Shown piece by piece: positions 1 through 63,564 of a stretch of DNA of 64,000 nucleotides. Source of the DNA: a virus; IMG/VR virus record IMGVR_UViG_3300021961_000075, positions 1 through 64,000 of that record; one strand, given 5' to 3'. Position 1 is the first letter of the stretch; each line of letters starts with the position of its first letter. Under the pieces are notes generated by a model. It was not told the DNA's origin, did no database searches, and was given only the letters and a program-made list of their open reading frames with translations. The position numbers and the translations under genes were made by a program.

Positions 1-1
1 T

Positions 2-32
2 ATTATCCTATAGCGATCGTAATTAGTCTGAA
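2..32 (-). promoter_or_regulatory. early promoter motif, copy A
   Basis: On the minus strand it reads TCAGACTAATTACGA, nine bases, then GATAATA. It keeps the ACGA-N9-GATAAT core shared by all nine copies. It would drive a gene lying to the left of the window. Confidence 0.7.
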
Positions 33-104
33 CAACAGCAATGCCAGTGCCGCTTTAAACGTCCATACTAAGATCTGTATTGAATCTTCTTTGTTGCTTT
101 TCAT
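3..104 (-). CDS. 33-aa single-span membrane microprotein
   Basis: A 33-codon frame starts at the ATG at position 104, two bases beyond the stop of the next gene upstream. The N-terminus is polar and charged (MKSNKEDS). It is followed by about 23 mostly hydrophobic residues rich in Leu, Ala and Ile, so it looks like a one-span membrane peptide. The last codons run through the whole first copy of the early promoter motif, so the promoter lies inside the gene. I do not recognise a family. Support is the tight spacing and the clean membrane-protein composition. Confidence 0.5.
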   Translation of the reverse strand: MKSNKEDSIQILVWTFKAALALLLFRLITIAIG

Positions 105-105
105 A

Positions 106-375
106 TTAGTTTGGATTAGGGTTTACTAGTTCTTGCTCTTTACGTAGCTGCACGTCAATCGCTCCGAGGGCATAGATTACCTCGCACCATATTTCTACAG
201 CATCATACTTGAGACGCTCGTCAAAAAACTCTTCATCTAAATAGTTGTGCTTGATAAGCTCTTCGTATAAGAAATTCTCAGTCCACGCGTAATGATCACT
301 ACCGAAGTAGTCTTCATCGTCACATAAGAATTTGATGTGTTTTACTATTTTCCAGTAAAGTTTCTTTGGTTCCAT
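106..375 (-). CDS. small acidic protein of unknown function
   Basis: An 89-residue soluble protein, rich in Asp, Glu and aromatic residues, with no signal peptide or membrane span. It follows the 83-codon gene with only two bases between them, so the two are probably cotranscribed from promoter copy B. I see no known domain. Its position among leftward early genes suggests a role in host takeover, but nothing in the sequence shows a mechanism. Confidence 0.75.
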   Translation of the reverse strand: MEPKKLYWKIVKHIKFLCDDEDYFGSDHYAWTENFLYEELIKHNYLDEEFFDERLKYDAVEIWCEVIYALGAIDVQLRKEQELVNPNPN

Positions 376-377
376 AA

Positions 378-629
378 TTATTCTTTTTCAGTTACTAATG
401 CTAAACATAATTGAAAAGGATCTTCTATGTGCTCGAATACTTCATCTAATCTAAGTCGTAGTATTTCACACTCTTCGTCTGTAAAGGCGCGCTGATCTGT
501 AGCAAATTCTATGATATCTGCTGGATCGCTGTCAAAGTGAAACATGTTGTCATCAAAGTACAGTTCACATATGAATCTTTTAGCGTCCTTATCTGATTTG
601 ATTTTCTTATAAAAATAGTGTGGTGTCAT
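378..629 (-). CDS. small acidic protein of unknown function
   Basis: An 83-residue soluble protein, basic at the N-terminus (YFYKKIKSDKDAKR) and acidic for the remainder, with predicted helices in the second half (EECEILRLRLDEVFEHIEDP). The start codon overlaps the stop of the upstream zinc-ribbon microgene in an ATGA arrangement, which supports both starts and implies translational coupling. No family recognised. Confidence 0.75.
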   Translation of the reverse strand: MTPHYFYKKIKSDKDAKRFICELYFDDNMFHFDSDPADIIEFATDQRAFTDEECEILRLRLDEVFEHIEDPFQLCLALVTEKE

Positions 630-739
630 AACTCGTCTAGATTTATAAATTCACAGTGTTCCTTGCATCGTCCACAGATACCTAAATCTGGATTACTAAG
701 CCACGGTGATGCTCCGCAGCAATCTGATTCTATATTCAT
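626..739 (-). CDS. 37-aa zinc-ribbon-like microprotein
   Basis: Starting at the ATG at 739 the peptide has CCGA near the N-terminus, an ICGRC pair about 15 residues later, then HC. Two cysteine pairs on a short frame is the layout of tiny zinc ribbons common in tailed phages, and the CCGAxPWLS...CGRC arrangement is typical of that group. The stop overlaps the next start (ATGA). An alternative ATG at 751 would add four residues but overlap the gene upstream, so 739 is preferred. Metal binding is inferred from cysteine spacing only. Confidence 0.65.
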   Translation of the reverse strand: MNIESDCCGASPWLSNPDLGICGRCKEHCEFINLDEL

Positions 740-740
740 A

Positions 741-920
741 CTATAATTCATTATTATAAAATTCTACTTGTGCTACAAAGTCTGAGTAGATGTCAGCGAG
801 GTCTGTAGCGTCCTCGAAGTCACAGTTTTGGTAACAGAACATGAATAGTTCTTTGGGTGTGGCACTAGCGTTATCTCGCAAGGTGTCAGGATCGAAGTAA
901 AACTTGAATTTGTTGCTCAT
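741..920 (-). CDS. 59-aa acidic protein of unknown function
   Basis: Begins MSNKFKFYFDPDTLRD and has two isolated cysteines and many Asp and Glu residues. It is the first gene after promoter copy B, whose GATAAT lies about 19 bases upstream of the ATG. The short A/T-rich leader with no Shine-Dalgarno is the same as in the neighbouring early genes. Its stop is two bases from the next start. Function unknown. Confidence 0.65.
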   Translation of the reverse strand: MSNKFKFYFDPDTLRDNASATPKELFMFCYQNCDFEDATDLADIYSDFVAQVEFYNNEL

Positions 921-938
921 AGTTATTTAGTTTATTAT

Positions 939-969
939 ATTATCAAATAGTGATCGTAATTAGTCTGTA
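939..969 (-). promoter_or_regulatory. early promoter motif, copy B
   Basis: Minus strand TACAGACTAATTACGA, nine bases, GATAATATA. It drives the 59-codon gene and probably the run down to position 3. Its first ten bases form the end, including the TAA stop, of the 57-codon gene upstream. Confidence 0.75.
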
Positions 970-1133
970 TGCCACTTGTTCTGTTGTATAAACTCTATTA
1001 GTATTTCCTCAAGAGTAATCATTTGATCAGGTGATAAACCACCTTCATCTAAATTATAGTCTTCGCATATTGCTTGGAAGTCAATATACTTTTCAATTAA
1101 GTTTGCTTTTTCTAGTTCTTCTGTAGTGTACAT
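960..1133 (-). CDS. 57-aa acidic helical protein
   Basis: Starts MYTTEELEKANLIEKY and is predicted mostly helical and acidic. The last codons read CAT ACA GAC TAA, so the stop codon is supplied by the promoter copy B sequence. It follows the 49-codon gene by two bases. No family recognised. The compact spacing and use of the same leader style support a real gene. Confidence 0.65.
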   Translation of the reverse strand: MYTTEELEKANLIEKYIDFQAICEDYNLDEGGLSPDQMITLEEILIEFIQQNKWHTD

Positions 1134-1135
1134 AG

Positions 1136-1285
1136 TTATATTTTATTTGCTATTTTATTTAGTAGATCTATATCTTTTCTGTAATGCTCCATCCACATGG
1201 CATCAGTGAAGTCATCTGTCAAGTGCTCTAGTGAAAACTTCAAGTTCTCATATACAATTCTTGCTTCTTCTTTTGTTAGGCGCAT
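1136..1285 (-). CDS. 49-aa helical protein of unknown function
   Basis: Starts MRLTKEEARIVYENLKF, amphipathic and helical throughout with a basic end. It lies between the 57- and 66-codon genes with gaps of two and five bases, so it is probably part of the transcript from promoter copy C. No recognised domain. Confidence 0.65.
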   Translation of the reverse strand: MRLTKEEARIVYENLKFSLEHLTDDFTDAMWMEHYRKDIDLLNKIANKI

Positions 1286-1290
1286 AGTGA

Positions 1291-1491
1291 TTATCTTAAG
1301 GTGAATGACTCAGTTAAGTATTTTTCATTGATTAAAGTAAAGCCTTTGTAGTTTAGCCATGAGCGAACTGGTGCTTCCGAGGTAACTTCTGCAAAGTGCT
1401 TAGGTAATGAACCCACCTTAAATACAAAGTACCTAGTGTGGTTTAACTTGATGTACTTGTTTTTCTTGTTAGCAGTTAATTTAATTTTCAT
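1291..1491 (-). CDS. 66-aa basic protein of unknown function
   Basis: Lys/Arg-rich with a run of beta-prone segments (TRYFVFKVGSL, KGFTLINEKYL). It is the first gene after promoter copy C, whose GATAAT is about 27 bases upstream of the ATG. The leader is A/T-rich without a Shine-Dalgarno. Small basic early proteins often bind nucleic acid or host proteins, but nothing here proves this. Confidence 0.7.
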   Translation of the reverse strand: MKIKLTANKKNKYIKLNHTRYFVFKVGSLPKHFAEVTSEAPVRSWLNYKGFTLINEKYLTESFTLR

Positions 1492-1517
1492 AATGAGTAG
1501 TTTAAATGTTCATATAT

Positions 1518-1548
1518 ATTATCAATGAAGCATCGTATTTAGTATGTA
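1518..1548 (-). promoter_or_regulatory. early promoter motif, copy C
   Basis: Minus strand TACATACTAAATACGA, nine bases, GATAATATA, upstream of the 66-codon gene. The first box differs from consensus by one base (TACATA instead of TACAGA). The ACGA-N9-GATAAT core is exact. Confidence 0.75.
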
Positions 1549-1627
1549 TAAAGTGGATAGCTTAGTTATACTTAGAAAAGTAAGGAGTGTCATAACACCA
1601 CGCTTCAAGGTGTGAATTATAAAAAGT

Positions 1628-1672
1628 GTGACATTAGCCTTATAGAATATCCTTAGTAGGGGCTATTGTCAC
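1628..1672. repeat. long imperfect hairpin, copy 1 (possible leftward terminator)
   Basis: The arms GTGACA-T-TAGCC and GGCTA-T-TGTCAC pair over 11 bp around one T-T mismatch and enclose a 21-base loop containing ATATCCTTAGTAG. A second copy lies at 3846-3890 with the same loop in the same orientation. Five A residues flank it on the left, giving a T-run after the hairpin on the minus strand, so it could stop leftward transcripts from the 1754-1972 gene. The rest of the 1492-1753 gap holds promoter copy C and nothing else I can identify. Confidence 0.65.
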
Positions 1673-1753
1673 CCTATTTCTTCGTAGTAATTCTGGTGAA
1701 AGCAAAGCGAAGTGCTATACACGCTCCGTCAGGAGCAATGTATTTTTTACTCG

Positions 1754-1972
1754 TTACTTGATGATAAGGTCACGAGCAAAGGTTGGAACATTATTCGTAG
1801 CGGTGTAAGATTTGTACTTCTTAAAACACTCCATGCTTTCAAAGCGATCTTTGTTTGCTTTGTATACTTCATCATGATTGTACTTGAATGTTTCACCTTT
1901 CTTAGTGGTGAACTCAATTACTTCTTTTTTCCCGAGTAATGATTTTCTGATTACGAAGCGATTTGTTTTCAT
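1754..1972 (-). CDS. 72-aa early protein, paralogue of the gene at 3412-3630
   Basis: A 72-residue basic protein that aligns end to end without gaps with the product at 3412-3630. Shared blocks are MKTxRFVIRK, ANKD, MECFKKYKSYT and PTFAR. It sits directly after promoter copy D. The pair clearly arose by duplication, and the conserved central block points to the functional surface. No outside family is recognised. Confidence 0.8.
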   Translation of the reverse strand: MKTNRFVIRKSLLGKKEVIEFTTKKGETFKYNHDEVYKANKDRFESMECFKKYKSYTATNNVPTFARDLIIK

Positions 1973-2018
1973 AGTAATAAAATTTAAGTTATAATTAATT
2001 TAGTTTAAGTTCAGAATT

Positions 2019-2049
2019 ATTATCTCATTGATCTCGTATTAACCCTGTA
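2019..2049 (-). promoter_or_regulatory. early promoter motif, copy D
   Basis: Minus strand TACAGGGTTAATACGA, nine bases, GATAATAAT, serving the 72-codon gene at 1754-1972. Immediately upstream is GTGTATAGCA, also found upstream of copy G. The rest of the interval to 2167 has no gene I can support. Confidence 0.75.
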
Positions 2050-2167
2050 TTGCTATACACCTTGAGGTAGGCGCATGACGGAGTCTACTCTTCCGACCCT
2101 ATTTCAAAGCCAGGCGCTAAAGGTGCAACGACTCTACTTCGCTACACCCTGTACCATGTATGAGTTA

Positions 2168-2599
2168 CTATTTTCTCATGTGTAACTCTAGTTGTATTCT
2201 ACCGATGCAGAACAGTAGCATTTGCATTACTGCTTCATCATACGTTATGTCTTCAAGTTCCATTAGACCGTCGTAGTCAAAACCATTGTATGCTTCAGCA
2301 CCGAACAATTCGAGATCATATTCTGCGATACTTAGTATTGCTGTAACCTCTGCGGTTTCATAATACTTATTGATGTAGAAACTACATGTACGCTTAAAGA
2401 TCTGTAACACTGTTTCTAAACGCTCTGTAGTATCTGTACATGTTATATTACCAAGTAAACTGTATGCGAATACTTCTGTTACAGCGTCTGTATCTACTGT
2501 GATATCGACTGTTTGATCATTGTCTTCGTTGTAATCTCGGTGAAACAAAAGTTGTGTTTTGATCTTGTTAAACTCATCATTGATAGTAAATGTTTCCAT
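2168..2599 (-). CDS. 143-aa acidic protein of unknown function
   Basis: The largest gene of the early block. It is strongly acidic, with helical segments throughout, three cysteines (one in ITCTDTTE, one in KRTCSFYINKYY, one in LLFCIGR) and a hydrophobic helix near the C-terminus (VMQMLLFCIGRIQLEL). There is no signal peptide. It is preceded directly by promoter copy E. No family recognised. Confidence 0.8.
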   Translation of the reverse strand: METFTINDEFNKIKTQLLFHRDYNEDNDQTVDITVDTDAVTEVFAYSLLGNITCTDTTERLETVLQIFKRTCSFYINKYYETAEVTAILSIAEYDLELFGAEAYNGFDYDGLMELEDITYDEAVMQMLLFCIGRIQLELHMRK

Positions 2600-2630
2600 A
2601 GTTATTAAATTTAGTTTAGTTATTAATTTA

Positions 2631-2795
2631 TTATATTATCTTACCTATTTCGTGTTTAATCTGTTCTATCTTTCGATCGATCAGATCATTTATTTCATCT
2701 TCACTCCAGTCATCATACTCTTGTATGTATAGACTGTGTAGTTCATCTCTAATTTCATCTTCATTTTCTTCGATGATGTAGTTAAATATTCTCAT
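2631..2795 (-). CDS. 54-aa acidic microprotein
   Basis: Starts MRIFNYIIEENEDEIRDELH, very acidic in the first half and basic at the end, helical throughout. Its last codons AAG ATA ATA TAA are the -10-like part of promoter copy E. It follows the 25-codon gene by five bases. No known family. Confidence 0.6.
   Translation of the reverse strand: MRIFNYIIEENEDEIRDELHSLYIQEYDDWSEDEINDLIDRKIEQIKHEIGKII
2635..2665 (-). promoter_or_regulatory. early promoter motif, copy E
   Basis: Minus strand AACAGATTAAACACGA, nine bases, GATAATATA, upstream of the 143-codon gene. The motif lies wholly inside the 3' end of the 54-codon gene. Its GATAATATAA supplies that gene's final codons and stop. Confidence 0.75.
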
Positions 2796-2800
2796 AGTGA

Positions 2801-2878
2801 TTATTGATTATTTAAAATATATTCTACTAAGTCGTTTTTGTCCCATTCCATTAATTGGTCATAAGTGAATTGTTTCAT
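2801..2878 (-). CDS. 25-aa microprotein
   Basis: A very short frame (MKQFTYDQLMEWDKNDLVEY and five more residues) located where a first gene is expected after promoter copy F, about 34 bases from the GATAAT. It has the same A/T-rich leader as its neighbours. The only argument for a gene is position and spacing, so it could also be a leader peptide. Confidence 0.4.
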   Translation of the reverse strand: MKQFTYDQLMEWDKNDLVEYILNNQ

Positions 2879-2912
2879 AGTGATTGATTTAATTTAGTTA
2901 TTAATTTATTAT

Positions 2913-2943
2913 ATTATCTTGTTGTACTCGTATTTATTCTGTA
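2913..2943 (-). promoter_or_regulatory. early promoter motif, copy F
   Basis: Minus strand TACAGAATAAATACGA, nine bases, GATAATATA, very close to the consensus. Its first ten bases are the end of the 53-codon gene upstream (ATT ACA GAA TAA). Confidence 0.8.
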
Positions 2944-3095
2944 ATAATATACTGGATGTTATAGATATTATTCTCTTGATTCTCTTCTCTGTGTTCACAG
3001 TGTTCACTGAAATCGTCTATTTTACTTTCATCTAATGATTCATAAAAGTTGTTTAGATTAGTGAATCCAATGATTTGTAATTCTACATGTTTCAT
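2934..3095 (-). CDS. 53-aa acidic protein of unknown function
   Basis: Starts MKHVELQIIGFTNLNNFYES, then a charged acidic stretch with HCEHREE, and ends YIITE. The stop TAA lies within promoter copy F. The gene is placed directly after promoter copy G. No recognised domain. Confidence 0.65.
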   Translation of the reverse strand: MKHVELQIIGFTNLNNFYESLDESKIDDFSEHCEHREENQENNIYNIQYIITE

Positions 3096-3140
3096 AATGA
3101 TTAATTTAATTTAGTTATTATTTATTTTTTATTCAAATAT

Positions 3141-3171
3141 ATTATCTCAATATACTCGTATTTAATCTGTA
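3141..3171 (-). promoter_or_regulatory. early promoter motif, copy G
   Basis: Minus strand TACAGATTAAATACGA, nine bases, GATAATATA, driving the 53-codon gene. GTGTATAGCA lies immediately upstream, as at copy D. Confidence 0.8.
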
Positions 3172-3192
3172 TTGCTATACACACAGGGTGTG

Positions 3193-3351
3193 TTATTCAA
3201 TGTTGAAGATCTCATCCAGATGGTATCCTTTGTTACGTACTATGTACATTACAAAATTGTTGAGGTGTATTTCACTGAAAAAACTTTTACGGATCGTCCA
3301 ACGTTTTCCTTTGTCAGTTATAAATTGTAATTGTACTCTAAAGTTTTTCAT
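3193..3351 (-). CDS. 52-aa basic protein of unknown function
   Basis: Starts MKNFRVQLQFITDKGKRWTI and is basic with alternating hydrophobic residues that suggest beta strands. No promoter copy precedes it directly, so it is probably read from copies H and I through the 72-codon gene. Function unknown. Confidence 0.6.
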   Translation of the reverse strand: MKNFRVQLQFITDKGKRWTIRKSFFSEIHLNNFVMYIVRNKGYHLDEIFNIE

Positions 3352-3411
3352 AATGTTTTAAGTTAAAGTTTTACATATTGTACATAGATCCCCGAAGGGT
3401 GGGAGTGTAGT

Positions 3412-3630
3412 CTATTCGACTACGAACTCCCGAGCAAATGTAGGTAGGTTGTTTGTTGATGTGTACGACTTGTACTTTTTGAAACACTCCATACCTTCGA
3501 ACTTATCTTTGTTCGCTGTGTAGACTTTGTCGTGATCATACTTAACGACTGATCCGTCTTTCTTTTGGAATTCAACTACGATTCCTTTACCGATGAGGTT
3601 TTTTCTGATAACAAATCTTTTAGTTTTCAT
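3412..3630 (-). CDS. 72-aa early protein, paralogue of the gene at 1754-1972
   Basis: Same length as its paralogue and alignable without gaps, with MKTKRFVIRK at the start and MECFKKYKSYT in the middle. It is the first leftward gene after two promoter copies, so it may be among the earliest and most strongly expressed. A 12-bp hairpin with a two-base bulge (3401-3412 pairing with 3418-3431) overlaps its stop codon and may terminate or stabilise the transcript, though no T-run follows. Function unknown. Confidence 0.8.
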   Translation of the reverse strand: MKTKRFVIRKNLIGKGIVVEFQKKDGSVVKYDHDKVYTANKDKFEGMECFKKYKSYTSTNNLPTFAREFVVE

Positions 3631-3677
3631 AAGTGTAAATTTAATTTAAGTTAATTATTTAGTTTTTATTCATTAGT

Positions 3678-3708
3678 ATTATCTCATTTAAGTCGTAGCC
3701 AGTCTGTA
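3678..3708 (-). promoter_or_regulatory. early promoter motif, copy H
   Basis: Minus strand TACAGACTGGCTACGA, nine bases, GATAATACT, upstream of the 3412-3630 gene. It diverges from consensus in the middle of the upstream box but keeps the ACGA-N9-GATAAT core. Confidence 0.7.
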
Positions 3709-3769
3709 AAAACCTAAAAACTTTCAGTGAAACAACACTAATAAGGGGCCCGTGGGGCTTTTCAAAGTC

Positions 3770-3800
3770 ATTATCACAATAGGGTCGTATTTGCTCTGTA
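3770..3800 (-). promoter_or_regulatory. early promoter motif, copy I
   Basis: Minus strand TACAGAGCAAATACGA, nine bases, GATAATGAC. It lies 92 bases behind copy H with no gene between them, so the two look like tandem promoters for the leftward block. Confidence 0.7.
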
Positions 3801-3801
3801 T

Positions 3802-3845: not shown

Positions 3846-3890
3846 GTGACAATAGCCTTTAAAGATATCCTTAGTAGAGGCTAATGTCAC
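3846..3890 (+). terminator. long imperfect hairpin, copy 2, with T-run
   Basis: GTGACA-A-TAGCCT pairs with AGGCTA-A-TGTCAC (12 bp around one A-A mismatch) over a 19-base loop with ATATCCTTAGTAG, followed by ACTTTTTT. It resembles an intrinsic terminator reading rightward, but no rightward gene lies before it within the window apart from the promoter region. It may insulate the structural block or be a shared structured element, given its copy at 1628-1672. Confidence 0.6.
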
Positions 3891-4190: not shown

Positions 4191-7175
4191 ATGGCAAGGA
4201 TAAGTAGTTACAACAAGGACAACGGGCTTACAGGCAACGATCTTCTTTTAGGCTCTTCGTTTGAGGGCAACATTAATGGTGTTCAAAAATACGCAACGCG
4301 CACATACAGGTTGTCTGACCTTGCGACATACTTTGGTGGATTTGTAAATGGTATAGATCTTAATGACCTGCTAGGCAGAATTGGAGACCTAGAAAGCAGT
4401 ATTAGTATTATATCTACTACGATAACAAACAACACGACGGCTATATCTATCGCAAATCAAAGTATAACTACTATAACAAACGAGCTGCTGTCGCAGTCTA
4501 CTTTCCAAACAAACCTATCTTCTACATTTGGAACATTTGATGAAAATGGTAATTTAACGTCGTTATCTCAAGCGTTCGCAGATCAAGTACTTCAAACAAC
4601 CGCGTCAGATAGATATGCCAACGCACAGTTCGTTACCAACCTAGCTGCATCAGTAGGTACATATGACGAAAATGGTAATTTAATTACTTTAGCAGAGGCC
4701 TTTGCAAACCAAGTACTGCAAGTAACTACAACAGATAAGTTTGCAACATCCGAGTTCGCCACGAACTTGGCAGCATCGTTTGGTACGTATAACCCCGACG
4801 GGACACTAGCTACTATCTCTGAAAGCTTCGCAAACCAACTACTGCAAGCATCGACAGCATCTGACTTTGCAGACGCGCAATTTGTGACAACGCTTGTAAG
4901 TAACTTCGGTACATTCGACGAAAACGGCAACTTACTCACTGTATCAGATTCTTACGCGAACCAGATACTATCAACAGCCAATACGTCTGAGTTTGCACAA
5001 GCTGAGTTTGTAACCAACCTAGCAAGTAGTTTTGGTACTTATGACGCTAATGGTAACCTTACGGCTATTTCTAGTTCTTTTGCCGATGATGTATTAAGCA
5101 CCGCTAATACCTCTGAATTTGCAGAGGCAAGTAAGCTTACTAATCTAGGTGCTTCATTTGGAACGGTTAATCCTGACGGCTCCGTGTCTTTTAGTAATAC
5201 CTCAACATATTCAAATCAAATATTAAACTACGTAGATAGCAGTTCTGCTCTTGCAACGCAGTTATCAAACTTACAGTCACAGGTTACAAATATACCTGTT
5301 ACGTTGCGTCAAGACGATGAGCCTGGTATATTAGATGGTAATAATGATCTTATTTATCCTCTTGGTTCTATATGGATTGACACAAATGATAGTAATGCTA
5401 TTTATATTCTTATTGAGGACGCGGGTGCACCATCAGGTTATTCATGGTCACCAACAACATCTGAAGCGTTAGGTGATCTTATATTAAGTAACGCACAGTT
5501 GCAAGATGATGTATCATTACTTGCCGATGATTTAAGTGCAGAAGGAACAAAACTTACAACACTAACGGCACAATTTGGTGTTTACGATCCTGTAACAGAC
5601 ACGTTTACAATAAATAATAATTCTAATGTAATAGCATCACTTAGAACATATGCTGATGCGGATTCTACTTCAGCTAAAAAAATAGATGGTATAAACTCCG
5701 TGTTTAACATGGTTGACGCTAATGGTAATGTAATTAAAAACTTAGCTACATTCAACCAAGAGATAACAACTTATGTAGATGCTAATTCAGCAGTAGCTGG
5801 AAGAGTTGATACACTAGAAGCAGAAGTAGGCGATAATGCTGCGGCCATCACAGCGGAGCAAACAGCAAGGGCAACAGAAGACGCCGCCATAGCATCAAGT
5901 GTTAGTAATTTAACAGCAACTATAGGAGATGAAAACTCTGGGTTAGTTGCGAGTGTTCAACAAGCATCAGAAGCGGTTGCTAGCTTAGAAGAAGGTCTTA
6001 AAGCGTCTTACGCTCTTACTGTTGGCGCAGGAAATGCTATATCAAGCATGAAATTACTTGCAGAAGATCCAAACCAACCTGGTCTTCCACCAACTTCTTC
6101 TATTATATTCAACACTAATAACTTTAAAATACAAAACGGTAGCGGTGTAGATCAATTCACAATTAACACGACTACTGGTAAAGCTGTTTTTGCAGGTAGC
6201 TTGCAAGGTGTAGATGGTACGTTTACTGGTAGACTTACTGCCGGAGCTGTTGATATATACAGTGATAATATAGCTATAAATATTGACTCGCTTGGTGGCC
6301 AGATAAAATTTGTAGACGACGCCGGAAACGACCACACGACAATGACAGCTAGCGGTGCAACTGGTAACTTTAATTTAATATGCCAAGAAAATGTATCTTT
6401 ATTAGCTAAAGACGGATCTGGTAATACCGTGTCTACGCTTTTACTAACAACACCTTCAGCATGGTTAACTGGGGACAATGTAAGGCTTGTTGCTGACAAC
6501 AGCGTTTATCTTAGCGGTACAGGCCAATTATACTCTTCTGGCTTTGATAGCTTTTTATTTTATGCCGGCGCGCATAGATTACAAGGATCTTCAAGCAGCG
6601 GAATAACAATAGCTAGTGGAATTACAACTTTAACAGTTAATGAAACAGGTGTTTTTGTCAACGGGCAACAAATAACAACTGGCGGACCTACTACTGATAC
6701 AAACTACTACTTAAATGGCATAACAAGAAGTGGTGACACGTTAACGTTCTCTGTGGCTGGAACCGCAAGCCAGTCGTACACTTTTGGGGCAAACGCGTTT
6801 AACTCAACAACTATACCAACAAATAACAACCAGCTAACAAACGGCGCTGGATACATAACGACAACCGGTTCTTATACATTCACTGGCAGTTTAACGGCTC
6901 AAGATTTTATTCTTGGTTCTGATAGAATATTAAAAGAGAATATAAAAGAATACAAGCCAAAACCAATCAATATACAGTACAAGACGTATAATTTAATTGG
7001 GGACGAAAATAAACGTGTAGGTGTTATTGCCCAAGAATTAGAAATAGAACACCCAGAGTTTATTAGAGAAAACGAAAACGGTATTAAATCCGTATCATAT
7101 ATAGACATGCTTGTTGCAAAAGTTGCAGAGCTTGAAGCAAGAATAAAAGAACTAGAGCATGGCGGTACCAAGTAG
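4191..7175 (+). CDS. tail fibre with C-terminal peptidase S74 chaperone
   Basis: A 994-residue fibre. The N-terminus MARISSYNKDNGLTGNDLL resembles that of the 233-aa protein at 9712-10413 and may attach to the virion. Residues about 105-362 are six tandem repeats of about 43 residues (NLAASFGTYDENGNL...FANQVLQ pattern). A long stretch of beta-helix-like and coiled-coil sequence follows. The end carries the S74 intramolecular chaperone: SDRILKENIK, then VGVIAQELE, then a C-terminal coiled coil. In that family the serine of the SD motif is the self-cleavage site after trimer folding. Receptor specificity cannot be read from the sequence. Confidence 0.85.
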   Translation: MARISSYNKDNGLTGNDLLLGSSFEGNINGVQKYATRTYRLSDLATYFGGFVNGIDLNDLLGRIGDLESSISIISTTITNNTTAISIANQSITTITNELLSQSTFQTNLSSTFGTFDENGNLTSLSQAFADQVLQTTASDRYANAQFVTNLAASVGTYDENGNLITLAEAFANQVLQVTTTDKFATSEFATNLAASFGTYNPDGTLATISESFANQLLQASTASDFADAQFVTTLVSNFGTFDENGNLLTVSDSYANQILSTANTSEFAQAEFVTNLASSFGTYDANGNLTAISSSFADDVLSTANTSEFAEASKLTNLGASFGTVNPDGSVSFSNTSTYSNQILNYVDSSSALATQLSNLQSQVTNIPVTLRQDDEPGILDGNNDLIYPLGSIWIDTNDSNAIYILIEDAGAPSGYSWSPTTSEALGDLILSNAQLQDDVSLLADDLSAEGTKLTTLTAQFGVYDPVTDTFTINNNSNVIASLRTYADADSTSAKKIDGINSVFNMVDANGNVIKNLATFNQEITTYVDANSAVAGRVDTLEAEVGDNAAAITAEQTARATEDAAIASSVSNLTATIGDENSGLVASVQQASEAVASLEEGLKASYALTVGAGNAISSMKLLAEDPNQPGLPPTSSIIFNTNNFKIQNGSGVDQFTINTTTGKAVFAGSLQGVDGTFTGRLTAGAVDIYSDNIAINIDSLGGQIKFVDDAGNDHTTMTASGATGNFNLICQENVSLLAKDGSGNTVSTLLLTTPSAWLTGDNVRLVADNSVYLSGTGQLYSSGFDSFLFYAGAHRLQGSSSSGITIASGITTLTVNETGVFVNGQQITTGGPTTDTNYYLNGITRSGDTLTFSVAGTASQSYTFGANAFNSTTIPTNNNQLTNGAGYITTTGSYTFTGSLTAQDFILGSDRILKENIKEYKPKPINIQYKTYNLIGDENKRVGVIAQELEIEHPEFIRENENGIKSVSYIDMLVAKVAELEARIKELEHGGTK
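4503..5277 (+). repeat. six tandem protein repeats of about 43 codons in the fibre
   Basis: Within the 994-codon fibre gene, the units share TNLxxSFGTYDxNGNL, a variable segment, then FANQxLQ or a close variant. DNA identity between units is imperfect, so these are diverged repeats rather than a recent expansion. They probably form a repeating rod segment. Confidence 0.75.
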
Positions 7176-21280: not shown

Positions 21281-22846
21281 ATGGAATATAATCAACCAAG
21301 TGAGATTGTTAAAGATCTTTCATTTGGCGAATCAGCCAGTGAAAAAATAATAAGTGGCGTTGACAAACTAGCTAATGCTGTTAAGTCAACCCTTGGCGCT
21401 TCAGGTAAGTGTGTAATTTACGAAGATGCTCTTGGTAAACCAGTTATAACTAAAGACGGTGTTACTGTAGCCGAATCGGTTGTACTTTACGACCCAGTTG
21501 AAAACATGGGTGCTACACTAATTAAAGAAGCCGCCAAAAATACAGTGAAAGAAGCGGGTGACGGTACGACAACTTCTACCGTCCTCGCTCAATCACTACT
21601 AAGACAGGCAAAAAATGCCTTAGACAATGGTGTCAAAATAAGGGAACTTCATGACGCTTATAATTCTGGATTAGATTTTGTAAATACATATTTAGATAAA
21701 AACAAAATCGAAGTAGAAGGAAGTATGTTGAGAGATGTTGCTACTATATCTACAAACAACGACTTAGTTTTAGGTAGTATGATTTCTGAAGCATACAACA
21801 AAGTTGGTAAGCACGGTGTTGTTTTAATGGAAGAGTCTGAATCTGAAACAACATACTTTGAAATAGTTGATGGAGTTCAGTTTGACTCAGGTTTAAAATC
21901 ACCGCACTTAGCTACAAACGAAGACAACGACAAGTCTGAATTAGAAAATCCATACATACTAATTGTAGCGTCACCAATCCCTAGCATAAGAAAAATACAA
22001 GCTGTACTAGAACATGTTATAAAAGAAAAGCGCAGCTTATTAATCGTGGCAGAAGTTGAACAACAACCATACGCTGCTTTATTAACAAACAAAGTAAAAG
22101 GTAATATCAAGATTAACATTGTTGATGTTCCTGGCTTTGGTTCTACAAAAAGAGACACAATAGAAGATCTAGCTGCATTAACTGGCGCAACTATTATAGA
22201 TGAACAGTTAGGTGATGATCTTGATTTGATTCAACCTGAAGTATTAGGTGAAGCTATTAAAAGTGTCACTGATGCAAATAGCACGGTAATAACAATAGAA
22301 ACCGTACCGCAAGAAGCTTTAGACCGTATAGATACTGTACAAAAGAAAATACAAAATGAAACTAATCCTTATATCAAGAAAAAGCTTGAGCAAAGATTGG
22401 CGATGTTATCTGGATCTGTAGGTATTATTAAAGTTGGCGCGAATAGTAAGGTTGAGTTGAAAGAAAAAAAAGATAGGGTGGAAGACGCTATCTACGCTGT
22501 TAAGGCGGCATTGCAAGAAGGTATTGTGCCTGGCGGTGGGGTTGCTTTGATTAATGCAATACAAAAGATGAACTCAAAAGATAATGTTGATCTTTATTTT
22601 CAAAGAGCTTTGTTATCACCTTTTAGTACAATATTAGAAAACGCTGGCATAGAAGTACCGAGCGATTTTACTTATAGAAAAGGTTGGGGTATAAATGTTA
22701 TAACTGGCAAACCTGTAAATATGATTAAAGCAGGTATTATAGATCCAGTTCTTGTAACAAAGACAGCGCTAAAAAATGCTGTAAGTGTAGTTAACACGAT
22801 TATTTCTGCAGACTGTGTTATCAGTAATAAAAGGATAGAGCAATGA
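21281..22846 (+). CDS. groL: phage-encoded GroEL-like chaperonin
   Basis: A 521-residue chaperonin (Cpn60) slightly shorter than the usual 540-550. Equatorial ATPase motifs are intact: KDGVTVA with D59, AGDGTTT with D94, and VEDA with D402, matching E. coli D52, D87 and D398, plus GGGVALINA. The apical domain region (about 190-370) is diverged. The C-terminal Gly-Gly-Met tail is missing. The stop overlaps the start of a GroES gene (ATGA), so both subunits should be made together. An ATP-driven folding chamber for virion proteins is the likely role. Confidence 0.92.
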   Translation: MEYNQPSEIVKDLSFGESASEKIISGVDKLANAVKSTLGASGKCVIYEDALGKPVITKDGVTVAESVVLYDPVENMGATLIKEAAKNTVKEAGDGTTTSTVLAQSLLRQAKNALDNGVKIRELHDAYNSGLDFVNTYLDKNKIEVEGSMLRDVATISTNNDLVLGSMISEAYNKVGKHGVVLMEESESETTYFEIVDGVQFDSGLKSPHLATNEDNDKSELENPYILIVASPIPSIRKIQAVLEHVIKEKRSLLIVAEVEQQPYAALLTNKVKGNIKINIVDVPGFGSTKRDTIEDLAALTGATIIDEQLGDDLDLIQPEVLGEAIKSVTDANSTVITIETVPQEALDRIDTVQKKIQNETNPYIKKKLEQRLAMLSGSVGIIKVGANSKVELKEKKDRVEDAIYAVKAALQEGIVPGGGVALINAIQKMNSKDNVDLYFQRALLSPFSTILENAGIEVPSDFTYRKGWGINVITGKPVNMIKAGIIDPVLVTKTALKNAVSVVNTIISADCVISNKRIEQ

Positions 22847-35583: not shown

Positions 35584-38500
35584 ATGCCAGAGATTAAAAA
35601 TACTTTCCTTGCTGGAAAGATGAATAAAAGTCTTGATGACCGATTACTGCCAGAGGGCGAGTATCGAGATGCATTAAACATACAGGTTACAAAATCTGAA
35701 GGCGCCGATGTTGGTGTTATTCAAAATATAAAAGGAAACCAAAAAGTTAGTGGTGATGTTACTTTAGATGATAGTGCTAAAGTAATTGGCAGCTGCTTTG
35801 ATGATCAAAATAACGTAATATATTATTTTGTACATCAAAATGTTGGTGTTTCAAGCAAAATAATTAAATACGATAAAAAAGCAAATCCTCCTGTAGCTTC
35901 TGAAATTATTTCTTCAGACGTTTTAGCTTTTGACAGAGACTCTTTTGTGCAAGCTAATGTTGTAGAAAACTATTTGTTTTTTACAGATGGCGTAAATGAA
36001 CCTAGAAAAATAGATACTACCATTAGCTATGATTCTAGCTCTATTGAAGAATACAACCTAACAGTTGCCAAACCAGCACCTCAACACGCCCCAACAGTAT
36101 CAATTCAAACAACTGATCCTAACGCTGGTAATTATATTGAAGAAAAATTTGTAAGATTTGCATATCGTTACAAGTTTTCAGATAACACTTATTCTGTTTA
36201 TTCTCCATTTTCAAATATTGTTTTTGGTCTAGACACTGATGTTTTAACAGAGGATCAAATTAAGGATGCTTATTCTAAAGGTGAGCTTGATTTTTTAACT
36301 AATAAAGCCAAAACAATAAGTATTCAAGCAAAAAGTCCAGGAGGCGCGATAGGATTTTTTCCTACATCTTACGGCATTGTCCAGGTTGATATATTAATGA
36401 AATCTTCTGATTCTCCAGCTGTGATGCTTTTAGATAGCGTGCAAGTTGATGAATTTGGAGCTGTTCCTGCTTTTATTTATAATTCTGAAAAACCAAAAAT
36501 AACACTTCCAGAAAATCAACTTATAAGGGTTTATGATGAAGTACCTAAAACAGCTATTGCTCAAGAAATAGTTGGTAATAGAGTTGTTTATGGTAATTTC
36601 ACGCAAGGTTTTGATATTAATACACGTGAAAGACTTCCTTTCGTTGTAAAAACAGAGCCAAAGAATATAAATTATCTAGGCGTTAAATCAAATAGAACAT
36701 ACGAGGTTGGTATTATTTTTTCCGACGATTACGGAAGAACATCTCCCGTAATGTTTGGGCAAAATAAATCAATAACTTTAGATAAAATAGTAGAAGATAA
36801 TTACAATTTACAACTCGCTTTAGAGTTTAATAGTAATATTGATTATATAAAAAATAAAGGATTTAAATACTACAGTGTTGTTGTAAAACAAGCTGAACAA
36901 GAATATTATAACGTATACACTCCTGGATTCGCGCATATAAATGGTAGAACTTATTTTTCAATATTTGGAGACAACATAAATAAAATACCAATTGACACGT
37001 CTACTTATAATTCAGAAACAAATATAAATTCTACAAAAACTAAAGTATCTATATCTTTAGTAAATAAATCGTTCTTTAACAAAACTACAACGTCTTCTTC
37101 AGATCCAATTAAAAAAACCGCAATAGACTACGACTTTGCAAATAATAATCAAGTTGGAGGCCAAGATGTGGTTGTTGGCAATTTCACAAATATAGTTGGT
37201 TACGCAACGGTATCTCATATATATAATGAAACTGAAAATCTTGTTACTCCGTTTCCAGACGGCACAACAAGTAAGTTTGTAATAAACAACGGCGTAATAC
37301 CAGACGCTGATCAACCAAACATTGCTGGCGATGGTACACCAACCGGCGGAACGTTTTCTGTTGGTTTTACTGCTAATGATTGCACTGGCGTGGTTGTTTT
37401 TGTTGATGGAGTTGAGCAATCATCTTCGCAGTTTGATTTTGATCCAACAGACGTATCTATAACTTTTGCACCGTCAAGCATACCAAGCACTGGTCAAACT
37501 ATAGTAGTATTTTTTCAATACGATAATCTTGTAATTCCGGCAGACACAAGTAGATCAGCGGTGTCATTAACTGAGATTTCTGGCACGGCGGCTATAACTG
37601 TTGTAGGTGAAATAGATATAAACGTTACAGACGACACGTACGCAACTAGTTCGACGTCTACAGATATTCAATTGGCATCCCCTGTTTATGGAAATCTTGA
37701 ACCAGTAAAAATAACAGGTATAGGAAATATAGACAATTTTTCCGTTATAAATAATGACATATTAGATGCAAGCACTGATTTGTTTGGTATATACAAAAAA
37801 GAAAATAAATATTTATTAGGAGAAATAGATGGAGAGTACGGTGTTCAGCTTTATAGCACCCAACCCTCTTTGTCCATGAAATATACGGATTTAGGAATTC
37901 TTGAAACAAAAGGTTTTGAATCTGTTATAGATATTTATTACGAGACCGCCACGCAGGGTTTAATTAATGAATTAGAAAACGCTACTAATGAAAATAAATT
38001 TGTTGTACGTGTAAATTATTTTAATTGTATAAATTTAAAAACTCCATCAAGAAATTCAGAACCTAGTGTTATTTGGCAAGAATCAAGAATCAAAGGCGGA
38101 TTTAACGAAACAAGCATGGACTATGGTGTTCAAGCGTACTTGACTAATGAAGATTATGGACTTATTAATAGAAAATCAAGTTTAATTTATTCTGGCGTAT
38201 TAAATAATAATACCAAAGTAAACAACACCAATCAATTTCCATCTGGAGACGCAATAACAAGAACATTAGACCCAACACATGGATCCATACAAAAACTTTA
38301 TGCTGACACAGATAACTTACTTATCTTTCAAGAAGAAAAAGTTTCTAAAGCGCTAATTGATAAAGATATTATATACACGGCAGAAGGTCAAGGCTTAACA
38401 ACAAAGGGTGAAAATGTGATAACGCTTGAAAGAAGTTTTGCAACAAATTATGGCATAGGTAAAGATCCTCAAAGCTTTGCTGTTTATGCTGGTAGAAAAT

Positions 38501-39234
38501 ACTTTGTTGATAGGCCGAAAGGAGCTGTTTTAAGGCTTTCTGGTGATGGTATTACAGAAATATCTAATTATGGCATGCGTAGTTATTTTAGAGAAGAACT
38601 AAGCAATCCTACAATAAATAAAGTTATAGGTAGTTGGGATATTTACAACAAGGAATATATATTAACTATTGATTCAGACTCTAGCGTTACTTTAGGTTTT
38701 GATGAATCAAACAATGGTTGGGTTTCAAGATATAGTTATATACAAGAAAACGGAGGTAGTATAGATGGTAATTTTTATACTTTCAACAAAGGTCATTTGT
38801 ACAAGCACAACGCGACAGAAAGTTATAACACTTTTTATGGAGTAACAGCCGCCGCTTCGACGATAGAACTTATATTTAACCAAAATGCCTCTGTAAACAA
38901 AAACTTCTATACTATTAATTATGAAGGAACAAATACATGGGATATAAGTACTATAGAAACAGATACTCAAGATACTGGTTTAGAGATAAAAAGTAATATT
39001 AACGCTGTTGCTGACACAGATACTATTATTAATTTGTCTGCTTTTAAAAAATACGATGAAAAGTATTTTGCAAACATAATAAATAGCAGTCCAGTTAAAT
39101 CAAACGAGGTTGTTTTTGGTAAAGATATATCTGGTGTTAAGGGTCATTTTATGAAAGTAACGCTTAATAATGAAGAACCAGGATACCAAGAGTTATTTTC
39201 TATATCAACAAACTATAATGTAAATAGTTATTAA
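35584..39234 (+). CDS. nozzle / stabilisation protein (tail tubular B-like)
   Basis: A 1216-residue beta-rich protein starting MPEIKNTFLAGKMNKSLDDR, then LLPEGEYRDALNIQV, a signature of the large stabilisation or tail-tube proteins of crAss-like and other Bacteroidetes podoviruses. An inserted beta domain (about 550-690) looks like a carbohydrate-binding or Ig-like module. The C-terminal third has propeller-like blades. It probably forms the tail nozzle. Confidence 0.75.
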   Translation: MPEIKNTFLAGKMNKSLDDRLLPEGEYRDALNIQVTKSEGADVGVIQNIKGNQKVSGDVTLDDSAKVIGSCFDDQNNVIYYFVHQNVGVSSKIIKYDKKANPPVASEIISSDVLAFDRDSFVQANVVENYLFFTDGVNEPRKIDTTISYDSSSIEEYNLTVAKPAPQHAPTVSIQTTDPNAGNYIEEKFVRFAYRYKFSDNTYSVYSPFSNIVFGLDTDVLTEDQIKDAYSKGELDFLTNKAKTISIQAKSPGGAIGFFPTSYGIVQVDILMKSSDSPAVMLLDSVQVDEFGAVPAFIYNSEKPKITLPENQLIRVYDEVPKTAIAQEIVGNRVVYGNFTQGFDINTRERLPFVVKTEPKNINYLGVKSNRTYEVGIIFSDDYGRTSPVMFGQNKSITLDKIVEDNYNLQLALEFNSNIDYIKNKGFKYYSVVVKQAEQEYYNVYTPGFAHINGRTYFSIFGDNINKIPIDTSTYNSETNINSTKTKVSISLVNKSFFNKTTTSSSDPIKKTAIDYDFANNNQVGGQDVVVGNFTNIVGYATVSHIYNETENLVTPFPDGTTSKFVINNGVIPDADQPNIAGDGTPTGGTFSVGFTANDCTGVVVFVDGVEQSSSQFDFDPTDVSITFAPSSIPSTGQTIVVFFQYDNLVIPADTSRSAVSLTEISGTAAITVVGEIDINVTDDTYATSSTSTDIQLASPVYGNLEPVKITGIGNIDNFSVINNDILDASTDLFGIYKKENKYLLGEIDGEYGVQLYSTQPSLSMKYTDLGILETKGFESVIDIYYETATQGLINELENATNENKFVVRVNYFNCINLKTPSRNSEPSVIWQESRIKGGFNETSMDYGVQAYLTNEDYGLINRKSSLIYSGVLNNNTKVNNTNQFPSGDAITRTLDPTHGSIQKLYADTDNLLIFQEEKVSKALIDKDIIYTAEGQGLTTKGENVITLERSFATNYGIGKDPQSFAVYAGRKYFVDRPKGAVLRLSGDGITEISNYGMRSYFREELSNPTINKVIGSWDIYNKEYILTIDSDSSVTLGFDESNNGWVSRYSYIQENGGSIDGNFYTFNKGHLYKHNATESYNTFYGVTAAASTIELIFNQNASVNKNFYTINYEGTNTWDISTIETDTQDTGLEIKSNINAVADTDTIINLSAFKKYDEKYFANIINSSPVKSNEVVFGKDISGVKGHFMKVTLNNEEPGYQELFSISTNYNVNSY

Positions 39235-62811: not shown

Positions 62812-63564
62812 TTAATCATTTATAAAATCTAATACTTGGTTTGGGTCTACGTTATCTATTAGCTTATCAAGGGCTTCACGTTTAATCTGAGATACCCTAA
62901 CAAAGTCAGCAACACCTTGAATATCAAGTAGTTTTGCTATTTTTTTAGCAGGTATTTTATCACAGTCTAATCCGAAACTCATCCTCAACACATCGTATTC
63001 ACGATCGTTAAGGTATTCCCTCATCAAAGATAATATATATTTGTTAAGTAAGTTAATATTATATTCCTTTGATTTGTCTTCTATATCAAAAGGTTTTTCT
63101 TCGTCCTCGTTTTCATCTATACTAGAAAATATAGAGTTAAAAAACATTTCTACAAGCTCACGATCTTTTCCTTCGTTTTTACGTATCTCATTTAACTTGT
63201 GTTCGGGTATACGTATATCTCCCCTGTTAATGTCTATGTTGCGTCTAACGGATCCTTTTATTCGTTTTGATACAAAGCCTTTGATCTGTCTTTCTACATC
63301 ATCATTCATGTTTATAATGTTCCAGTCTAAACGATCTACAGCTGCTATTAATCCGTAATTAGCTTCTTGTATAATATCATTTATAGTCATTACGCCTGAT
63401 GCTTGATCTGATGTTGAAAATGTTCTTGCTATTTCCATGGCAAAAGGCATAAGTTTTATAATTAATTCGTCTCGTGTATATTCATTCCACGGTTTGTCTT
63501 CAGGCATACACGCCTCTAAGTCGCGTTTATACCTTAGATAATTTTCTAAGTTGTAATTCTTCAT
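62812..63564 (-). CDS. phage sigma-70-family sigma factor
   Basis: A 250-residue sigma factor. Region 2: IMTINDIIQEANYGLIAAVD-like core recognition helix (residues about 58-80). Region 3: RIKGSVRRNIDINRGDIRIP and KLNEIRK. Region 4: YLNDREYDVLRMSFGLD and the HTH KIPAKKIAKLLDIQ with VSQIKREALDKL. It overlaps the HTH gene by 38 bases. It should redirect host RNA polymerase to phage promoters. The repeated motif at 1-3.8 kb is the prime candidate target. Confidence 0.85.
   Translation of the reverse strand: MKNYNLENYLRYKRDLEACMPEDKPWNEYTRDELIIKLMPFAMEIARTFSTSDQASGVMTINDIIQEANYGLIAAVDRLDWNIINMNDDVERQIKGFVSKRIKGSVRRNIDINRGDIRIPEHKLNEIRKNEGKDRELVEMFFNSIFSSIDENEDEEKPFDIEDKSKEYNINLLNKYILSLMREYLNDREYDVLRMSFGLDCDKIPAKKIAKLLDIQGVADFVRVSQIKREALDKLIDNVDPNQVLDFIND

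Follow-up and report, generated by a model that had tools for sequence, protein, structure and literature searches.

What reads the array of near-identical motif copies that lies among the small genes at one edge of an uncultured phage genome, and do these copies also determine where the proteins encoded before them end? We addressed this question in a stretch of 64,000 nucleotides (nt), hereafter the window, which comprises bases 1–64000 of the 68518-base-pair (bp) virus record IMGVR_UViG_3300021961_000075; nine strict copies of the motif lie within its positions 1–3801, all on the minus strand. We interpret them as phage-specific sigma70-type promoters that are read by the phage's own sigma factor, and we put the probability of this reading at about 0.64. 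Their promoter nature is suggested by the strict two-block structure of the motif, the one-strand array, the purine at the predicted start and the sigma gene at the array's end; the start site, recognition by the sigma factor and the timing of expression are likewise predictions from the sequence.

The motif reads TTACA(A/G)ACTAAATACGA, 9 nt, (G/T)ATAATATAAAT and a purine. Over 397 sites, which were picked on ACGA-N9-GATAAT so that those letters are invariant by construction, the consensus was TTACA(A/G)ACTAAATACGA, nine variable bases, GATAATATAAAT and a purine. Two further strict copies lie beyond the window at record bases 65412 and 67758 (ACGA to GATAAT), giving 11 in the whole record, and a scan of both strands of the 68.5-kb record found no others. 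When scored with a matrix trained on 375 sites of other contigs, with the window left out, the eight complete window copies reached 22.5–39.1 bits, compared with a best score of 1.6 bits in 20 base-shuffled 64-kb windows. The ninth, copy A, resumes at the opposite end of the record, with an ATG after it, if the record is circular. The spacing between the two blocks was nearly constant: among the 171 cases in the arrays in which 4–15 nt separate AAWACGA from GATAATA, 169 have a gap of 9 nt.

The predicted start was a purine in 97% of the 397 sites, which had been picked regardless of that position, and in 271 of 275 matrix-picked sites, where a pyrimidine preceded it in 221 of 275. The nearest downstream ATG of an open reading frame (ORF) of at least 30 codons lay mostly at or past this position: among 269 sites it was exactly at the predicted start in 26 and earlier in 11, while 41 sites had none. 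The −10 element was close to TATAAT, being G/TATAAT in the 31 arrays with at least five sites; its first base was T in 23 of 24 sites of the genomes G038, G039 and G040, and the 28 remaining genomes with at least five sites have G there. The base before the −10 element was uniform within many arrays and differed by lineage (C, G, T or A): it was C in 9/9 sites of both G006 and G010, and T in 11/12 sites of G017 and 15/16 of G020, with the other spacer bases being more variable. Such uniform, lineage-wide shifts are as expected for a diverging trans-acting reader.

The array runs toward a phage helix-turn-helix (HTH) gene and a sigma70-family gene (Table 1). At an E value of 0.01, Pfam sigma region 2 (PF04542) was detected in 24 of 29 sigma orthologs and region 4 (PF04545) in 23 of 29; the window sigma itself passed this threshold with region 4 only and scored below both curated cut-offs. 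Its profile matches in the PDB were SigA and FliA, and Foldseek, run with its model, reported 84 matches at E ≤0.001, the lowest E value being 3.7e-5; each of the 50 matches listed is an entry for RNA polymerase or a sigma factor. At E 1e-5, none of 50,697 named phage records contained a match to the sigma protein.

An exact scan of IMG/VR for the motif returned at least 80 stretches. We collected 45 records, comprising 37 from the motif scan and 8 of the 41 loci found in a scan for a 72-amino-acid (aa) early protein, picked mostly by length. The strict motif was present in 42 of the 45 (in 37 of them as a condition of choice), with up to 12 copies each, nearly always all on one strand; G039 and G040 have no strict motif and carry the TATAAT variant, and in G045 little of the array is covered. 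A sigma homolog was found in 31 of the 45. In 13 of the 14 records without one, the last motif is within about 1.6 kb of the sigma-side contig end, and in G041 the contig end truncates the HTH gene; since the sigma gene usually lies 2–3 kb past the last motif (range 0.13–3.5 kb), these 14 cut records neither favour nor oppose a link between motif and sigma. The 275 matrix-picked sites come from 32 genomes with an extracted sigma gene: 205 lie upstream of it on the same strand and stretch. Of the remaining sites, 63 fall on further stretches that were fetched, 4 are located downstream of the gene and 3 have the opposite orientation. In a sample chosen by capsid protein (29 records plus 3 named relatives), a sigma gene was found in 6 of 32, and five of these six records had at least two ACGA motifs; in the sixth, the sigma gene lies 0.9 kb from the contig start. 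Fragments of this sample with at least two motifs and no sigma gene were G055, G063, G064 and G074, whose arrays extend to within 1.8 kb of a contig end.

The motif is thus shared by dozens of uncultured marine phages that probably infect flavobacteria. The terminase and portal of the window phage are nearest to those of MW202828.1 (64% and 54%), followed by the Flavobacterium Elemo phages (45% and 42%), with Cellulophaga phage phi38:1 as the third-nearest relative of the portal (37%); because of these named relatives, Flavobacteriaceae are the probable hosts. MW202828.1, Elemo and phi38:1 themselves have no sigma gene and no motif copy of at least 9 bits; the loose pattern ACRA-N9-KATAATA matches once in each of them. 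When a longer pattern was run against genome contigs, only eight stretches were found, six of them in Flavobacteriales bins; a 4.3-kb contig binned outside Flavobacteriales (L280) combines the motif with genes for the HTH protein and the sigma factor. Among the titles and abstracts listed in literature searches, none described this motif or reported a sigma factor from this phage group.

Whether the copies also shape the upstream genes was raised by the original prediction, in which copies B and F supply the stop codons of 57- and 53-codon genes and copies E and A lie inside 54- and 33-codon genes. These placements were reproduced: the 57-codon ORF ends ...TGG CAT ACA GAC TAA in copy B and the 53-codon ORF ...ATT ACA GAA TAA in copy F, the 54-codon ORF crosses copy E to stop at the TAA of GATAATATAA, and the 33-codon ORF stops at the GATAA of copy A. 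Four of the nine window copies (A, B, E and F) therefore overlap ATG-start ORFs; no overlapping minus-strand ATG-start ORF of at least 25 codons was found for copies C, D, G, H and I, of which C and I overlap only TTG-start frames of 28 and 36 codons. The 33-, 53- and 54-codon ORFs, for which the fetched loci contain no homologs, are predicted genes only, and codon-usage scores of the small ORFs were too weak to indicate translation or its lack. Both copies beyond the window overlap homolog-supported genes, one of 173 aa and one of 144 aa; the latter, in which Pfam detects a DnaA C-terminal domain (E 1.8e-11), reads through the promoter.

For the overlap statistic we used 269 of the 275 sites, again from 32 genomes, after removal of duplicate 41-mers and of sites scoring less than 16 bits. 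At 92 of 269 sites (34%), the 41-bp motif contained the end of an ORF of at least 50 codons, compared with 11% at random positions of the same arrays, a lenient control because promoters are expected near gene ends anyway. An association of overlap with altered protein ends was visible among homologs. Among pairs of 55–75% identity, both C-ends were aligned (alignment within 3 residues of each C-end) in 397/593 pairs without overlap, 11/81 with one overlap and 9/35 with two; at 35–55% identity the counts were 301/931, 32/189 and 5/30. These pairs are not independent, and overlaps were called from simple ATG-to-stop ORFs. As one example, the 57-aa protein ends QNKWHTD* at copy B, whereas its homolog in G029, without a promoter there, ends QNKWQNQDK*. 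As another, the promoter lies 472 bases into both the 173-aa gene and a 163-aa homolog, and their C-ends are unlike (VTDLIRRKQDNITVKQ versus LADKIR). The earlier claim that the promoter fixes the C-terminus of the upstream protein thus gains comparative support, in particular from the 397/593 versus 11/81 contrast.

It is nevertheless somewhat favoured, in our judgment, that the overlap has no function of its own, an AT-rich, stop-rich promoter between packed genes closing upstream frames by accident. All three frames were closed in 147 of 269 motifs, compared with 36% of shuffled motifs and 10% of random 41-mers; because shuffled sites reach 36%, composition accounts for much of this closure, and we dropped the idea of closure by design. 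Stops also cluster right before the motif as well as within it, and the overlap is often not common to homologs. Against accident, the stop used was the TAA of ACARAC-TAA at 39 sites, compared with 14 for the TAA of GATAA and 2 for the third-frame TAA. Furthermore, the gene with the DnaA C-terminal domain reads through the promoter at the identical codon in the window phage and in G029, with 9 of 13 motif codons matching, versus 15 of the 30 codons that precede the motif and 7 of the 30 that follow it. The overlap is probably a by-product of tight packing, yet one that accompanies altered protein ends.

The further proposal that a gene and its promoter move as a unit held only in part: a promoter and its downstream gene form a unit in a few families, whereas a unit of upstream gene and promoter does not appear to be general. 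For pairs at 30–70% identity with the largest family left out, a promoter upstream was common to the homolog partner at 0.65 (base 0.34) and an overlap at 0.39 (base 0.13); averaged per family (19 families each), both concordances were about 0.3, that for the overlap being 0.31. An earlier pairwise test at 30–70% identity had given 0.81–0.83 versus a base of 0.50–0.58 for the upstream promoter and 0.29–0.30 versus 0.14–0.16 for a promoter at or near the gene end, the latter climbing to 0.73 at 70–90% identity. This had suggested that promoters are retained only by the downstream gene, a notion that weakened once the largest family was dropped and families were averaged. Firmly promoter-led families are few: in the 72-aa family the motif lies upstream of 38 of 40 copies in 28 genomes, and in others of 18/24, 16/22 and 18/21 copies. 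Units, where present, therefore usually consist of the promoter and the downstream gene.

Several observations weigh against the phage sigma factor as the reader. The weakest point of a model with the sigma factor alone is the conserved TAAATACGA in the spacer, a place of no usual sigma contact, which may call for a second protein. If the sigma factor is made only from the array's end, another factor must start the array. A host-type promoter triggering the HTH–sigma operon was considered, as the window has two boxes of the host consensus TAHHTTTG (PMC6847099) ahead of that operon, and was rejected for lack of enrichment: TAHHTTTG lies upstream of the HTH gene in 5 of 31 genomes, versus 12.6% of random windows, and in antisense in 9 of 31. 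The Foldseek matches had query TM-scores of only 0.28–0.34 and the model a pLDDT (predicted local distance difference test) of 75.9, so the domain arrangement of the sigma model is uncertain. The 18 motif-bearing fragments without a visible sigma gene are all cut too early and add no support. Because array and sigma occur in one lineage, their co-occurrence is confounded by descent. In mutual information with the promoter bases, sigma residues did no better than the HTH protein; the top columns of the two proteins were equally good and follow descent, and co-variation was not taken as proof. Several alignment columns set G038–G040 apart, one of them residue 99 of sigma (S to K), although one clade is no proof alone. 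The base before the −10 element required at least 9 state changes on the tree of the sigma factor and 7 on that of the HTH protein, with no shuffled control. These feature tests left out genomes with fewer than five sites or a mixed base, and G030 (broken sigma frame); the alignment reference lists omit G043 and G030, and both protein alignments omit the near-identical G010. Finally, near-identical single sites occur in three Flavobacteriaceae chromosomes (L282:4535-4575, L285:141-181 and L286:4273-4313).

An arrangement like that of T4 MotA is a rival reading: the HTH protein would bind the upstream block (TAAATACGA) and recruit the host RNA polymerase to the −10 element, with the sigma factor serving other genes. 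Of the 32 genomes from which a sigma gene was extracted, 31 also have the HTH gene (G019 gave no HTH hit and is therefore outside the HTH alignment), the conserved block extends to −22, past a normal −35 element, and co-variation with the promoter bases is about as good for HTH residues as for sigma residues. We nevertheless regard this arrangement as unlikely, because in most of the 31 genomes the HTH gene start lies in a different conserved inverted repeat, GTGACA..TGTCAC, which is a better candidate operator, and because the host −7 box TAHHTTTG occurs within +1..+15 of the motif in just 5 of 275 sites. The inverted repeat at the HTH start is probably the operator of the HTH protein or a hairpin, and extra copies are found in many early arrays.

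Searches with the HTH protein found no match at E 1e-3 in the 50,697 named phage records and no PDB fold match in Foldseek at E ≤0.001. Inverted repeats of the form GTGACAnnAGCC..GGCTAATGTCAC, 44–46 bp in length, occur at record bases 64159–64202 (L224:4160-4203, at the HTH start codon) and at window positions 1628–1672 and 3846–3890. In G006, G010, G013 and G035, the HTH gene contains a motif copy of 34–40 bits that is upstream of the sigma gene, at offset 259 of the HTH frame in L235 and L233 and at offsets 489 and 498 in L242 and L244; such copies could perhaps mediate sigma autoregulation.

That a host sigma factor alone reads the array, the promoters mimicking those of a primary or alternative host sigma factor for early expression before any phage protein is made, appears improbable to us. 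Early genes do first need a reader already present at entry, and, of the three chromosomal sites, the two that were checked lie outside ORFs of 60 aa. However, the six genomes searched contained only one or two sites each at up to 3 mismatches, and of the three extra sites two had 3 mismatches and one was a near-copy of the first; no host regulon is therefore visible. The host consensus TAHHTTTG is also nearly absent from the motif. One possibility is that the chromosomal sites belong to a satellite or defence gene that may respond to the phage sigma factor. The L282 site lies about 150 bp from a transfer RNA gene. In G077, the genome of L285, a second copy lies 18 kb away (G077:C2:141677-141706).

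A promoter of a single-subunit, T7-type phage RNA polymerase, whose consensus resembles AATACGA-N9-G in a superficial match of spacing only, was dropped as highly improbable, because the conserved span of about 40 bp is wide for that promoter class and the conserved purine comes only 12 nt later. PF00940 matched 0 of 45 records, as it did 0 of 14 control genomes.

With the phage sigma factor as the preferred reader, we propose that the sigma factor encoded at the downstream end of the array would direct the host core RNA polymerase to these promoters, which would drive the array of small genes. Each promoter would consist of a −35 element ACARAC at −36..−31, a −10 element (G/T)ATAAT (KATAAT) at −12..−7 and a start at the purine 6 nt past the −10 element, with the conserved TAAATACGA in the upstream half of the 18-bp spacer; some transcripts would be leaderless, with the ATG at the start site. 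Under tight packing, a promoter would often fill the last codons and stop of the preceding gene, its built-in TAA triplets ending the upstream protein, and C-termini would shift as promoters come and go. More tentatively, at somewhat below even odds, a large clade of uncultured marine phages, probably of Flavobacteriaceae, has its own sigma factor and a dedicated promoter set so deeply in coding sequence that it serves at once as promoter, C-terminal codons and stop, so that lineage-wide shifts in sigma specificity would rewrite all array promoters together with the neighbouring C-termini.

Table 1. Candidate promoter copies and predicted genes of the array and its sigma end (window coordinates).
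Feature	Position	Strand	Remarks
Promoter copy A	1..33	-	Cut by window edge; pattern match
Promoter copy B	930..970	-	38.1 bits; stop ACA GAC TAA for 57-codon ORF
Promoter copy C	1509..1549	-	39.1 bits; upstream of 66-aa ORF 1291-1491
Promoter copy D	2010..2050	-	24.7 bits; upstream of 72-aa ORF 1754-1972
Promoter copy E	2626..2666	-	25.4 bits; 54-codon ORF reads through
Promoter copy F	2904..2944	-	36.6 bits; stop ACA GAA TAA for 53-codon ORF
Promoter copy G	3132..3172	-	35.5 bits; upstream of 53-codon ORF
Promoter copy H	3669..3709	-	26.3 bits; upstream of 72-aa ORF 3412-3630
Promoter copy I	3761..3801	-	22.5 bits; first of array
33-codon ORF	3..104	-	Ends in copy A; no homolog found in fetched loci
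57-codon gene	960..1133	-	Ends in copy B; homologs 68% (G029), 54% (L258)
54-codon ORF	2631..2795	-	Ends in copy E; no homolog found in fetched loci
53-codon ORF	2934..3095	-	Ends in copy F; no homolog found in fetched loci
72-aa early gene	1754..1972	-	Promoter-led family
72-aa early gene	3412..3630	-	Paralog of 1754-1972
Phage sigma70-family factor	62812..63564	-	Pfam regions 2/4, PDB profile, Foldseek; proposed promoter reader
HTH protein, 212 aa, PF08279	63527..64000	-	Extends to record base 64165

Elsewhere, the window encodes ribonucleotide reductase, thymidylate synthase and GroEL, the last at 21281–22846 and annotated likewise in phi38:1, Elemo and MW202828.1. A 1216-aa crAss muzzle-like protein (35584–39234; domains PF25731 and PF25729) links the phage group to crAss-like phages. 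The first third of the gene for a 994-aa protein (4191–7175) contains DNA repeats spaced by 126 bp (42 codons) or multiples thereof. In an Rfam scan of the window, no family reached its gathering score.

For uncultured marine phages of a widespread group, the locus offers a concrete and testable promoter–sigma pair. Arrays whose promoters change in concert within each genome constitute a natural data set on sigma/promoter co-divergence, and they provide a measurable route by which regulatory DNA alters protein ends in compact genomes.

How does this system compare with known ones? In crAss-like phages, a virion RNA polymerase acts in early transcription, as described in PMC8375218. Those phages and the present group are both phages of Bacteroidetes with an early gene block, and the crAss muzzle-like protein of the window adds to the likeness, whereas no virion polymerase turned up here in Pfam scans, beyond which no further search was made. 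Host leaders have a median length of 24 bp, and 5.5% of host mRNAs are leaderless (PMC9723704). Flavobacterium sigma-A promoters are described as TTTG/TAHHTTTG (PMC6847099, PMC9723704). They represent the likely host machinery and share an A-rich stretch before the start codon, but the −7 box is missing from +1..+15 in 270 of 275 of our sites. Another known system is Sigma28/FliA, whose promoter reads TAAA ... GCCGATAA: the phage sigma is of similar size and can be aligned with FliA (1rp3) along most of its sequence, and TAAA and GATAA occur in both promoters, whereas here the spacing is off by 4 nt and there is no GCC. T4 middle promoters, composed of a MotA box and a −10 element, resemble the motif in having a conserved box in the −30 region, a −10 element and a small DNA-binding phage protein; they differ in that here the distance from box to −10 is fixed at 9 nt, a sigma gene is present and the HTH protein has no PDB fold match at E ≤0.001. 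Phage-encoded sigma factors with promoters of their own are known from SPO1 (gp28 and gp33-34) and T4 (gp55). Unlike those, the present system has a longer −35 side (17 conserved bases), a −10 element near TATAAT, probable Flavobacteriaceae hosts and a sigma gene whose partner, the HTH gene, in most cases has its start within an inverted repeat; like them, it would combine a phage sigma factor with promoters of a phage-specific class that recur along a single block of genes.

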